The notes under the pieces were generated by a model. That model searched no databases. It saw nothing but the letters and a program-made list of their open reading frames with translations, and was not told the DNA's origin. A stretch of 32,067 nt of DNA from Bacteroidetes bacterium HGW-Bacteroidetes-13 (lineage in GTDB: Bacteria; Bacteroidota; Bacteroidia; Flavobacteriales; Flavobacteriaceae): NCBI GenBank assembly GCA_002841025.1, contig PHDQ01000005.1, positions 1 to 32,067 of the forward strand. The letters run 5' to 3'. Below, piece after piece: positions 4,466 through 26,042 of the stretch (position 1 is its first letter; each line of letters opens with the position of its first letter). A program made the translations under genes and the position numbers.

Positions 4466-4534
4466 TGTTATTCGTGAAATTGGTTTCGAATAAATTTAAA
4501 ATTTGAATAAACCGAAAAATTTCACATTCGGCTA

Positions 4535-4565
4535 TTTGTAAATAAAATTTATAGTTGTAGATTTG
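4535..4565 (+). promoter_or_regulatory. Bacteroidota-type promoter of the rplM-rpsI cluster
   Basis: TTTG at 4535-4538, 19-nt spacer, TAGATTTG (TAnnTTTG) at 4558-4565; rplM starts 48 nt downstream. Confidence 0.65.
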
Positions 4566-4612
4566 CACCCCGTTATTCGAGAAGAATTATAGTTATCATA
4601 AAATTATTTAGT

Positions 4613-5068
4613 GTGAACACATTAAGCTACAAGACAGAATCAGCCAACAAAGCCACGGCCAATAAAGCATGGGTTTTGGTAGATGCCGAAGGACAAACAT
4701 TGGGTCGATTTGCTTCCAAAGTTGCAAAACTGCTACGAGGCAAACACAAAACAAACTTTACCCCACACGCCGATTGCGGTGATAACGTTATTGTTATCAA
4801 TGCAGAAAAAATCGCGTTGAGCGGCAAAAAATTTGATGAAAAAGTTTACATCAGACACACAGGTTATCCGGGTGGGCAACGTTCACTTACAGCAAAAGTA
4901 ATGTATGAAAAAAACCCGTCAAGAATCGTTGAGAAAGCGGTAAAAGGAATGTTGCCTAAAAACAAGTTAGGCGCTGAACTTTTCAGAAACTTGAACGTAA
5001 ACGTCGGTTCTTCACACAAACACGAGGCTCAAAAACCCACAACCATCAATCTTAACGAATTCAAATAA
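4613..5068 (+). CDS. rplM: 50S ribosomal protein L13
   Basis: WVLVDAEGQTLGRFASKVAKLLRGKHKTNFTPHADCGDNVIVINAEKIALSGKK; GTG start; followed directly by S9. Confidence 0.97.
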   Translation: MNTLSYKTESANKATANKAWVLVDAEGQTLGRFASKVAKLLRGKHKTNFTPHADCGDNVIVINAEKIALSGKKFDEKVYIRHTGYPGGQRSLTAKVMYEKNPSRIVEKAVKGMLPKNKLGAELFRNLNVNVGSSHKHEAQKPTTINLNEFK

Positions 5069-12294: not shown

Positions 12295-12308
12295 ATATTT
12301 GGTTGAAA

Positions 12309-12338
12309 CTTCTATCAATTTAATTAATTTGATAGAAG
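12309..12338. terminator. Inverted repeat between convergent genes, possible terminator
   Basis: CTTCTATCAA / TTGATAGAAG, 10-bp perfect stem with AT-rich 10-nt loop; no clear T-tract. Confidence 0.35.
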
Positions 12339-12387
12339 CATCATCTTGCTGTTTGTAATCTTTTCCCACTATTGTAAGGGATATTTT

Positions 12388-12855
12388 CTACAACCGCATC
12401 GCTGCTGCCAATTCTCTTTCGGTGTATTTTGAAAGCACGCCTTCGCGAATAATATTCCAATCTTCATTGCTTGAAACACCTTGGTTATTAACCTGCCTGA
12501 TCCACAAAACATTGATGGTATTGGCACTGATTGAGGAAAGCATAAAGGTTTGCGTTTCAGACCAAACCTCTCCCTTGTTTTGCCAACTAAAAACAAGGTT
12601 GTTTTTTAAGTTGCTGAAAATTTCTTTGTCATGGTTGACAAAGTAAAACTTATCTTCGGCTTTTCTGTACTCAATTTGCCTTGCCTTGCCTTCTGAAACA
12701 TAAATCATCAGGAGTAAATCTTTGCTATCTCCATATAAATCGTCGCGGTCGGAAATCATCCCTGCCCAATAACCATCGGTGGCGAAATTTTGCGCAAAAG
12801 AAAATGTAAAAGAAATCATCACCACGCAGATGATGAATACACGAATCGTTCTCAT
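12388..12855 (-). CDS. Small secreted protein of unknown function
   Basis: Signal peptide MRTIRVFIICVVMISFTFSFAQ; complete ORF with no strong competing frame. Confidence 0.65.
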   Translation of the reverse strand: MRTIRVFIICVVMISFTFSFAQNFATDGYWAGMISDRDDLYGDSKDLLLMIYVSEGKARQIEYRKAEDKFYFVNHDKEIFSNLKNNLVFSWQNKGEVWSETQTFMLSSISANTINVLWIRQVNNQGVSSNEDWNIIREGVLSKYTERELAAAMRL

Positions 12856-13100
12856 AAATATAGTTTTTAGTTAGTTTACATAATCAGTTAAATTTATATT
12901 GCATAAATATTTTTTTAATTATATTTTGAGCTTATCAATATATAATTAACTTAATTTAACTTTTATGTGGGTAAATGTATGTTATAATTTTATTACACGC
13001 AATACCCTTCATTAAAGAATTCAATCCGTGACACAAACATCTCTTTTCGTATTAAAAATCTGTTTTAAAATAAATAGATAAAGTGATTGATTAATTTTTT

Positions 13101-13333
13101 GTAACTATTCAGCCATTCAAATAAATTTCTTTTTAACCGTCACTTCGCGTGGTTTTTAATAGTAAGGCGACAGCTTTACTATTAAAAATTGCCTGTCTGC
13201 CACAGGCAGGTATCGAGAAGCTTGGAATTGTATAGTTCTCGATACGTTTTATTAAAAAAAGCTATCGCATTTTTCAATAAAACATTCGAACAGACGAAAT
13301 TTGTGTCGATTTTTTATTAAACTGAATAGTTAC
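13101..13333. mobile_element. Putative IS66-type MITE (non-autonomous, 233 bp)
   Basis: Perfect 12-bp TIRs GTAACTATTCAG (13101-13112) and CTGAATAGTTAC (13322-13333). Perfect 8-bp direct repeats AATTTTTT at 13093-13100 and 13334-13341. No ORF; four internal hairpins. Confidence 0.75.
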
Positions 13334-13433
13334 AATTTTTTAAAAGAAAATGTATTTAATACTATTTGCACAGCTTAACGATAAACGCTTATCGATAACG
13401 AAAAACAAATGGTCACACAATCTAAAAAAGTGA

Positions 13434-14471
13434 TTAGATGGAATTGCCGTAATATTTCCCCTTCAACCAGAAGGCAACCCTGACCAACAAAATGAGTGCA
13501 GGCACTTCTACCAAAGGTCCAATAACGCCTGTGAAAGCTTGTCCGGAATTCAGCCCAAAAACGGCTATCGCAACAGCAATGGCTAACTCAAAATTGTTGC
13601 CAGCTGCCGTAAAGGCTACAGCTACATTTTTATCATAGCTTGCACCACTGGCTTTTGTTACAAAAAATCCAATGAAAAACATCACGGTAAAATAGATTAG
13701 CAGTGGAATAGCAATTGTTAATACATCCTTTGGGATTTGAACTATTAATTCTCCTTTGAGTGAAAACATCACCACGATGGTAAATAACAAAGCAATCAGT
13801 GTTAGCGGTGAAATGGTTGGAATAAATTTGATGTTATACCAAGTTTCACCTTTTAATTTGACTAAAATCAATCGGCTTAAAAGCCCCATCAAAAAAGGAA
13901 TCCCAAGATAAATAGCAACACTTTCTGCAATCGTCGCGATGGAAATATCGACCAAAGCCCCTTCAAACCCAAAATATGGAGGTAATACAGTAATAAAAAT
14001 CCATGCGTAAAAACTGTAAAAAAACACTTGAAATATGCTGTTTAATGCCACCAATCCCGCGCCGTATTCGCTGCTGCCTTCTGCCAAATCGTTCCAAACC
14101 AGCACCATGGCAATGCATCTGGCAAGGCCAATCAAGATAAGGCCTACCATGTATTCGGGATAGTTGTGTAAAAAAACAATCGATAAGACAAACATCAGTA
14201 TAGGTCCGATTACCCAATTCAAAATCAAGGAAATGGATAAGATTTTGACATTTTTAAATACTTTGGGCAACAGCTTGTAATCTACTTTGGCCAAAGGCGG
14301 ATACATCATCAAAATCAATCCAATCGCGATGGGAATGTTGGTTGTGCCACTGCTGAACGAATCAATCACAGTAGCTGAAGAAGGATAAAAATAGCCGATC
14401 GACACACCGATTGCCATCGCCATAAAAATCCAAAGGGTGAGGAATCGGTTTAGAAAACTTAAATGCTTCAT
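13434..14471 (-). CDS. arsB: ACR3-family arsenite efflux permease
   Basis: Ten-TM-like protein with ACR3 signatures: [60 protein letters not shown]. Last gene of the ars operon. Confidence 0.93.
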
Positions 14472-14517: not shown

Positions 14518-15123
14518 TTACATTTTTATTCTCGAAAAAACCCAATGCATTTCGGATGCGATTTGCATAGAACATTCATCGTATTTTTGGGCTTCTTGCG
14601 GAGTGTTGTCATATGATTTTGGGTCTTCATACCGAATGGGGATGCGCATCTCAGCACCGATTACAACCGGACAATTTTCATCGGCATGTGCGCAAGTCAT
14701 GACAGCGGCAAAATCGGAATTCGGATTGATGGGGTCATCCACCAATTTTGAAAAAGCGAGCAATGGACTTTTTCCTTTCTCATAAAAAACCTGATAAATC
14801 GGATTGTCCGGATGTTCGTTTTCTTCAACCTGAAAACCCGCTCTGATAAGCGAATCTATTGTTCTTTTGTTACATGCTGTTACTTCGACACCCCCAGAAA
14901 AACACCGGATTTCTATGCCAAAATAACACGCCATGGTTTGCGCCCAAATTTGAGCCAACTGGCTTCTTCTGGAATTGTGTGTACAGATAAAATGTAGATT
15001 TACAGGCAACTTCCGGTCAATTTTAAACTGAATATAATCGACCAAAATTTGTAGGCTTTCTGAGCGATGCTTCGACGGTCTAATCTTCGAAATGTTTTTT
15101 ATAAAAGATTGCAAATCAATCAT
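14518..15123 (-). CDS. arsC: LMW-PTP-fold arsenate reductase / protein-tyrosine-phosphatase-like protein
   Basis: FICTHNSRRSQLAQ (CX5R) loop; SGGVEVTACNKRTIDSLIRAGF; CAHADENCPVV. Located in the ars operon. Likely ATG at 15123 (MIDLQSF). Confidence 0.82.
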   Translation of the reverse strand: MIDLQSFIKNISKIRPSKHRSESLQILVDYIQFKIDRKLPVNLHFICTHNSRRSQLAQIWAQTMACYFGIEIRCFSGGVEVTACNKRTIDSLIRAGFQVEENEHPDNPIYQVFYEKGKSPLLAFSKLVDDPINPNSDFAAVMTCAHADENCPVVIGAEMRIPIRYEDPKSYDNTPQEAQKYDECSMQIASEMHWVFSRIKM

Positions 15124-15164
15124 TAAAGCAGACTTATGCAAACCCATCTGAATACGTTTTAAAG

Positions 15165-16049
15165 TTAACAGCAACCCGAATTGGGTGCGCATTTTGTTTT
15201 TGAAATTTCGGAAATATTGATTTTTTGTTTATCCGTTAGACCTGCTTTTTTTCCGAAAACCGTGATACTGAAAATGCCGTGCTCACGTTTTTGAAAGGCT
15301 TCTAATTCTTTAGGATTGAGATATTTGTCGAGTATGTCATCGGGTAGCGAAATGGTTTTTTCTTTTTGAATGGAAATTTCCCTAAATCCCGCATCTTGTA
15401 GGTATTTTAAATAGGTGTCTTTTTGAATCGCTCCCGCAACACAACCGGCATACATTTCGGCATCTTCACGAAGTGCCTTGGGCAAATCGCCGACCAACAC
15501 GATATCTGAAACGCTGAAATGACCACCGGGTTTGAGGACGCGGTACATTTCACTGAATACTTTGGGTTTGTCGGGAACTAAGTTTAATACACAGTTGCTC
15601 ACCACCACATCGATGGTTTCGCTTGAAACGGGTAAATTATCGATATCGCCAAAGCGAAACTCTACGTTGTTGAAGCCTAACTTGTCGGCATTAAACCTCG
15701 CCTTTTCGATCATCACGTCTGTAAAATCAATGCCGATGACTTTACCGGTTTCTCCGGTTTCATGGCGGGCGACAAAACAATCGTTTCCCGCACCTGAACC
15801 CAAATCGAGAACAGTGTCACCGGGCATAATTTTTGCAAATTGCGTTGGCAATCCGCACCCCAAGCCCAAGTCGGCATCATCTACATAACCTTCTACTTTC
15901 GTGTAATCATCCATCATAATATTATAAACCTTATTGGATGTATTTCCAGCGCCACAACAAGAGGCTTGGTTAAAGGATTTGGGTTGCTCCGCAATCAACG
16001 CGTACTTTTTTTGCACGATTTTTTTGAGTGCTTCTTCATTCGTTTTCAT
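15165..16049 (-). CDS. arsM: Arsenite S-adenosylmethionine methyltransferase
   Basis: SAM motif VLDLGSGAGNDCFVARHETGETGKVIGIDFTD; Cys at SCCGAG, LGLGCGLP, VVSNCVLNLVPDK and YAGCVAGA. ATG at 16049 (MKTNEEALKK) preferred over the ORF-track start. Confidence 0.93.
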   Translation of the reverse strand: MKTNEEALKKIVQKKYALIAEQPKSFNQASCCGAGNTSNKVYNIMMDDYTKVEGYVDDADLGLGCGLPTQFAKIMPGDTVLDLGSGAGNDCFVARHETGETGKVIGIDFTDVMIEKARFNADKLGFNNVEFRFGDIDNLPVSSETIDVVVSNCVLNLVPDKPKVFSEMYRVLKPGGHFSVSDIVLVGDLPKALREDAEMYAGCVAGAIQKDTYLKYLQDAGFREISIQKEKTISLPDDILDKYLNPKELEAFQKREHGIFSITVFGKKAGLTDKQKINISEISKTKCAPNSGCC

Positions 16050-16116
16050 GATAGTAAAATTTATAGTGGCTGGTGGATGGTTGCTGGTTTGAAAAACTTC
16101 CGACTTCCGACTCCCA

Positions 16117-16452
16117 TCAACAACAGTCTGAATTATTTGTATATTGATATTGATTGAAAAATTCTTCAAAAAGCACTTGTATTTCTTTCCATTTTTTAGG
16201 ATAAATACAATAGTTTACCGAAACTCCTTCGATGGTTCCTTGGATGAGGCCAATTTCTTTCAATTCTCGCAAATGCTGGCTGATGGTGGGTTGCGCCAAA
16301 CCCAATTCTTGCACCAAGTCGCCGTTGATGCAGGCGTTGGCTTTCAACAAATACTGAAGAATTGCCACGCGCGCCGGATGCGCCAAAGCTTTTGCCATTT
16401 GTGACAGTTCGTTTTGCTCTTTGGTAAATAATTCTTTCTTGGTAAGGCCCAT
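16117..16452 (-). CDS. arsR: ArsR-family transcriptional repressor
   Basis: Winged-helix LAHPARVAILQYLLKANACINGDLVQELGLAQPTISQHLRELKEIGLIQGTIEGVSVNYCI; first gene of the ars operon. Start MGLTKKELF at 16452. Confidence 0.92.
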   Translation of the reverse strand: MGLTKKELFTKEQNELSQMAKALAHPARVAILQYLLKANACINGDLVQELGLAQPTISQHLRELKEIGLIQGTIEGVSVNYCIYPKKWKEIQVLFEEFFNQYQYTNNSDCC

Positions 16453-16462
16453 GGTTGTATTT

Positions 16463-16486
16463 ATATATTGCAATATTACGATATAT
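16463..16486. promoter_or_regulatory. Candidate ArsR operator
   Basis: ATATATTGCAATATTACGATATAT matches its own reverse complement at 20 of 24 positions; lies 10 bp upstream of the arsR start. Confidence 0.6.
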
Positions 16487-25060: not shown

Positions 25061-25445
25061 AAAAACACGCGCCCTAACAAGGGGTGTAGCTAATGTGGAT
25101 TTTTAATGGGTTCTCGGAACGGTTTAGCACGTTCTGTACGGATTTTCTCACCGAACAATTTCAAACATCTTTGCGACTACATTTGAGGATTTAAAAGGTT
25201 GTTTTGGACGCCATTCAATGTGAGTTTGAAATATATTGGATATCAACACAAGTCGATAAACAAATTGAATCTTGTAAGAGCAACCGGAATAATTCGATGA
25301 ATCAATTTGACGTATAACCTATTCCGATATGAGCAAGTAGTTAGGTTGAACATTTTAGCCTAATTAAATAATCAAAGGTGTATAAATTAACGTGCGTTCG
25401 ACATTTAATAATTTGGTTTAAAGCAGTTTGAGTTTGACTCATTGA

Positions 25446-25521
25446 CATCTGCGCTGATCTGCGTTATTCGCGGGAGTCTTTTAAAGAATTTTCCCGCTGA
25501 TTCTGAAAATGTATGCAGATG
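25446..25521. repeat. Imperfect palindromic intergenic repeat
   Basis: Two 30-nt arms: CATCTGC-N17-GCGGGA facing TCCCGC-N17-GCAGATG, outer 7 bp and inner 6 bp perfect. Confidence 0.45.
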
Positions 25522-26042
25522 ACTACTTTTTGAAAATCATTGAATGACAGTAATTTGTGTTTAATTTGATTGGAAAGTTTGATTTTCTTAATTCGAACTC
25601 ACGTCAAATTAGTTTTTAAACGAAATAGATCCAAATAACACCGAGGTATTTTTACTATTTAACTTTTTGCAAACCTAAACTGGCCTGTTTTATGAAATAA
25701 TCAAAAAATTTAATTTTTAGAACCCACCTCTAAAGCATACCGGTTTTGTTGTGAGAAAAAATAAATTAATGCAAATGTTTATGTCAATAAAAGAAATGGA
25801 AGAAAGAAACCACCCTTTTCTTTTATATTGAATTCAGCCTTATCATAGATCACCTGTTCCTATTTCCGCGATTTCTTCACACATTTTCAAAAAACATAAA
25901 AATCAATCCGACACACTGATTAGATGTTAATTAACATTGTTGTCGACTCTTCACGATGCCAATAAAAACAGCACGTTTAACCATTTCTTAAAAATATTTG
26001 GCTTATATAAAGATAAAATGCAATAAAAAACGGCAAATATAC

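Follow-up and report, generated by a model that had tools for sequence, protein, structure and literature searches.

The 233-bp element lying beside an ars operon of Bacteroidetes bacterium HGW-Bacteroidetes-13 is very probably (probability about 0.93) a member of a species-restricted MITE family of the non-autonomous IS66 type, whose ends would stem from an IS66 transposon with tnpC as its only gene and which would have been mobilised in trans by TnpC. The observations behind this reading are the ends, the TSDs, the copy number, the matches to full-length IS66 elements elsewhere and the empty orthologous spacer of one copy. We propose that such a single-gene transposon has the 12-bp ends GTAACTATTCAG as its recognition ends, that TnpC supplied in trans, now or formerly, would have brought the element to an AT-rich site between genes, and that its insertion would have duplicated 8 bp (AATTTTTT). 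The mobilising TnpC would have been lost from, or be missing in, the host assembly. Most of the inner chain of hairpins would be passenger sequence, and hairpin 2 with its U-tract, read on the minus strand, is predicted to end some ars transcripts, probably as a side effect.

The window is the whole stretch of DNA analysed, 32,067 nt of contig PHDQ01000005.1 (assembly GCA_002841025.1), and all positions count from its start. Its relevant features are as follows.

13101..13333, plus strand (the orientation of the family consensus): non-autonomous IS66-type MITE, 233 bp (alignment of 19 long copies and genome search)
13093..13100: left TSD AATTTTTT (direct reading; perfect 8-bp duplications are found in 17/24 complete family copies)
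13334..13341: right TSD AATTTTTT (direct reading)
13101..13112, plus strand: left TIR GTAACTATTCAG (direct reading and repeat analysis; same ends on IS66 elements)
13322..13333, plus strand: right TIR CTGAATAGTTAC (direct reading and repeat analysis)
13153..13188: hairpin 1, 15/16 pairs, partly an inverted copy of hairpin 4 (inverted-repeat reading, fold, inverted self-matches)
13180..13208, minus strand: hairpin 2 (13190-13208) and its U-tract, resembling an intrinsic terminator; no other block of the family is as conserved (terminator scan, conservation, fold)
13210..13245: hairpin 3, 10-bp stem and variable 16-nt loop (inverted-repeat reading, conservation profile)
13246..13283: hairpin 4, 15/17 pairs (inverted-repeat reading, pair analysis)
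12388..12855, minus strand: 155-aa protein without Pfam match, downstream of the element (Pfam)
13434..14471, minus strand: SBF-family transporter (PF01758), taken from its operon context as an ACR3-like arsenite exporter; 101 bp separate its stop from the element (Pfam)
14518..15192, minus strand: ars operon gene without Pfam match (Pfam)
15165..16169, minus strand: methyltransferase, ArsM-like (Pfam)
16117..16473, minus strand: ArsR-family regulator (Pfam)

In the window copy, the TIRs are perfect across 12 bp and the TSDs across 8 bp; the computed inverted repeat came out at 14 nt rather than 12 because two bases of the AATTTTTT duplication are counted on each side. A sequence-only reading of this DNA had placed the TIRs, TSDs and hairpins correctly to within one base, and all four of its nested hairpins were found, hairpin 3 being one pair longer than it had said. 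It had also seen no ORF inside, in agreement with our ORF check, in which the longest frame within the element has 43 aa; a transposase gene is absent. Hairpins 1 and 4 have common sequence as inverted copies, so that the element is partly a single large, imperfect palindrome centred on hairpins 2 and 3. Folding is strong: the plus-strand RNA reaches -75.9 kcal/mol versus -39.3 for dinucleotide shuffles (z -9.3), with z -10.0 for the minus strand against such shuffles and z -7.7 for single-stranded DNA against shuffles. A search for a Bacteroidetes-type -33/-7 promoter returned no full TAnnTTTG match and one partial, weak-looking match.

The host draft assembly (2.54 Mb in 358 contigs, 82% complete) breaks at repeats. 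Searching it with the window element yielded 40 main places that carry the long core at 84-97% identity, and searches with the end sequences added ~15 further places, including five short forms of 120-140 bp. Relatives of the element occupy ~50 places in the host genome, corresponding to somewhat fewer distinct insertions since contigs often break within copies. The 8-bp flanks are identical in 17 of the 24 two-ended copies and differ by a single mismatch in four more. The 17 perfect TSDs represent 16 different target sequences (86% A+T), whereas random re-pairing of left and right flanks gave a mean of 0.8 perfect TSDs and never more than 6 in 10,000 trials. All sampled copies are intergenic, with mixed orientations of the neighbouring genes. 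This copy number, the varied TSDs, the lack of coding capacity and an empty orthologous spacer (see below) bear out the MITE label that the element had been given from its letters.

Its assignment to IS66, first proposed from the letters alone, gains support from full-length PF03050 elements of two phyla that carry the same 12-bp ends; the mobiliser of the host species was not seen. The TIRs start with GTAA and match those of a full-length IS66 element. Scanning the left 20 bp of the MITE against ~85,000 species genomes brought up six places in Clostridium manihotivorum. Four of them are elements of 1703-1705 bp; L110 (3891-6798) is the same IS66-type element with an IS630-like transposase insertion nested inside, 2908 bp long overall and with its TTTTTTTT duplications intact; the sixth place runs beyond the fetched stretch. 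All five two-ended elements begin and end with GTAACTATTCAGCTATTCAAAT..AGCTGAATAGTTAC and lie between identical 8-bp flanks. In L110 and L111, an intact protein of 503 aa combines PF03050, zf-IS66 and DUF6444 domains and is the single PF03050 transposase of the element. With this protein, and without using the ends, we searched 396 Bacteroidota genomes and found a 1630-bp element (L162) in which GTAACTATTCAG and CTGAATAGTTAC enclose a PF03050 gene of 498 aa, with no clear 8-bp TSD. The first 22 bp of the MITE are the same as in the Clostridium elements, the 12-bp ends being identical at 12/12 positions, and no obvious sequence is common to the MITE and the full-length IS66 elements past ~22 bp. 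The MITE thus has in common with single-gene, tnpC-only (ISBst12-like) IS66 elements its 12-bp ends, 8-bp TSDs and AT-rich targets; it differs from them by its size (233 bp versus ~1.6-1.7 kb), its lack of a transposase gene and its unrelated interior. In another MAG (L117, JAJVHT010000155.1, positions 4517-4629), noted together with L113, we found an unrelated MITE of 113 bp that is bounded by GTAACTATTCAG ends; it has an 8-bp duplication and, inside, GC-rich inverted repeats.

The full-length IS66 element with the same TIR that the sequence-only reading had proposed to look for was thus found in C. manihotivorum and in one Bacteroidota genome, but not in the host assembly. No PF03050 transposase was detected in this assembly, which is 82% complete and in which many contigs end inside copies, and no parent IS was found there; the exact 12-bp ends examined all fall in MITE copies. 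IS66 elements of Flavobacteriaceae in another genome (G106) were rejected: their ends differ (GTATCCA), and their TSDs are of 8 bp. The lack of a detectable IS66 transposase in the host would suit a MITE of another family whose ends resemble those of IS66 by chance, and 8-bp duplications are not unique to IS66, being also made by elements of, for example, the ISL3, IS1595 or IS256 type. Such an origin is nevertheless very improbable, since exactly these 12-bp ends border the PF03050 genes of two independent full-length IS66 elements from two phyla, one of which was found without using the ends.

The family appears restricted to its host. We detected no copy in two genomes of the same genus, nor, chance-level end matches aside, in ~250 genomes of the same family and 396 of the phylum (~640 Bacteroidota sampled), and a search of plasmids brought up nothing related to the MITE. 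Matches resembling the ends, in four or five other Flavobacteriaceae, were discarded as chance or as shared promoter-region sequence beside the same two genes, and two matches in the phylum (L147, L148) as coding or non-IS sequence. In three Flavobacteriaceae genera (L094, L096, L099), GTAAATATACAGCTATTCAA occurs in the spacer of the same two divergent genes and is probably a conserved promoter-region motif.

An empty site, which had been suggested as a check, was found for one copy but not at the ars locus. For the copy on C137, a contig of the host, both flanking genes are present in the congener G002, and the spacer between them is normal in length and holds no element. At the ars locus of G002, the genes for an FG-GAP protein and the transporter are only ~45 bp apart, so that the gene for the 155-aa protein (12388-12855) is absent along with the element. 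The missing segment (window 12301-13433) is a whole 1.1 kb, more than the element, and no exact empty site with a single AATTTTTT was seen there. Despite the strong folding, an ancestral regulatory RNA or REP-like palindrome cluster that is not mobile is scarcely credible: perfect and varied 8-bp TSDs at many sites already contradict it, no Rfam match reaches the gathering score, congeners and the other Bacteroidota sampled lack the element, and the stem pairs mostly decay uncompensated across copies, with a compensatory double change in 1 of 75 pairs.

From its perfect duplications, the insertion at the ars locus had been taken as fairly recent. This is doubtful: the duplications are intact, yet 13/233 positions of the window copy depart from the majority consensus, and the mean pairwise identity among 19 long copies is 91.9%. 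The perfect duplications at this site would therefore not mark the insertion as fresh relative to the other copies. Three short forms (C107, C109 and C324) retain about the outer half of each of hairpins 1 and 4 but not the centre with hairpin 2, a structure as would be expected from deletion between inverted repeats.

Two observations concern the surroundings of other copies. The same left flank, TTAGAAAATAC, lies beside a copy on two contigs (G000:C259:4654 and C288:3887), which points to local duplication, overlap or a mixture of strains in the assembly. Another repeat family, ~217 bp long and ending in ACGTGAGTTCGA..TCGAACTCACGT, is present in the window at 25390-25604 (minus strand), nested in L040 (C155, 2979-3195) and in L041/L030 (C188), and also in L032 and, partially, in L020. 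Two IS66-type MITE copies with different TSDs of their own (CTTTTTTT and CTATATTG) carry it at the same position within hairpin 1, suggesting that a composite of both repeats may have moved as one unit.

Conservation within the MITE is uneven. The A-tract and hairpin 2 show 0.7% changes versus 4.3% overall, with ~1.8% in the stems of hairpin 3 and outer hairpin 4, 4-8% in the arms and 10% in the loop of hairpin 3; none of 5000 column permutations gave a 27-column window as low as the observed minimum. The 17-mer of hairpin 2 is intact in thirty-six copies and has one change in four. On the minus strand, the block reads TGCCTGTGGCAGACAGGCA-ATTTTTAATA, in which the hairpin (13208-13190; stem of 7 bp, -11.5 kcal/mol) runs directly into a U-tract (UUUUU; tail AUUUUUAAUA). 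A G+C-rich stem directly before a U-tract is thus present on the minus strand, and none is found on the plus strand. This is the only terminator-like match between the stop of the ars transporter and the gene at 12388-12855, and it is in the ars direction.

One tentative explanation is that the central block is needed for mobility, for instance as a contact for a host factor or the transposase, and is conserved since only competent copies multiplied. It fits the strong local conservation and the excess of long copies with hairpin 2 (~40) over short forms (five). However, short forms devoid of hairpin 2 have TSDs (perfect for C109, one mismatch for C324), indicating that the block is not strictly required for mobility, and the 113-bp MITE of the other MAG has no such block.

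Alternatively, the copies might have been domesticated as distributed terminators, kept as hairpin 2 and its U-tract stop minus-strand transcription, here at the end of the ars operon. We consider this unlikely. It would account for the site on the ars strand, intact in 16 of the 19 long copies, and for the low change rate of the block. Gene contexts do not favour it: among 13 tandem contexts, 3 are in the orientation that would use the terminator and 10 in the opposite one (p = 0.09), and convergent (6) and divergent (5) contexts are about equally frequent. Hairpin 2 is moreover wholly missing from the three short forms described above, and its stem shows no compensatory changes. The terminator or insulator role put forward from the letters alone is possible only as that of an orientation-specific terminator. 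That purifying selection acts on the A-tract/hairpin-2 block once a copy has inserted, making the family a set of ~40 portable orientation-specific terminators or RNA 3'-end stabilisers, one of which would now end the ars operon, seems quite unlikely.

IS66 members with 8-bp duplications include ISPpa5a and ISPpa7 of Paracoccus (PMC3281130). Among bacterial MITEs, MITECca01 of Cardinium is derived from IS982 (PMC9769881), and others are MITEAba12 (PMC6382973) and QMITE2 of Coxiella (PMC10969869). Like these, the IS66-type MITE is short and non-coding, with TIRs, TSDs, AT-rich intergenic sites, many copies per lineage and stable folded transcripts, predicted in our case; it differs from them by its IS66-type ends and its chain of four hairpins. 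The IS982 parent of MITECca01 is present, whereas the host assembly shows no intact parent for the IS66-type MITE. The pneumococcal SPRITE repeats also comprise a hairpin with a sequence resembling a rho-independent terminator (PMC10969869); in contrast, the terminator-like hairpin described here is a component of a larger element that has TIRs and clear TSDs.

In the open-licence papers searched, we found no IS66-derived MITE of this kind. The family is a genuine IS66-type MITE family previously unlisted in the sources searched, and otherwise an ordinary type of element in which one hairpin is conserved more strictly than the rest. Our analysis puts on record a family of IS66-type MITEs that one flavobacterial lineage has in abundance and its congeners lack, and the uneven internal conservation provides a concrete lead on whether hairpins of bacterial MITEs are kept for mobility or for the host.
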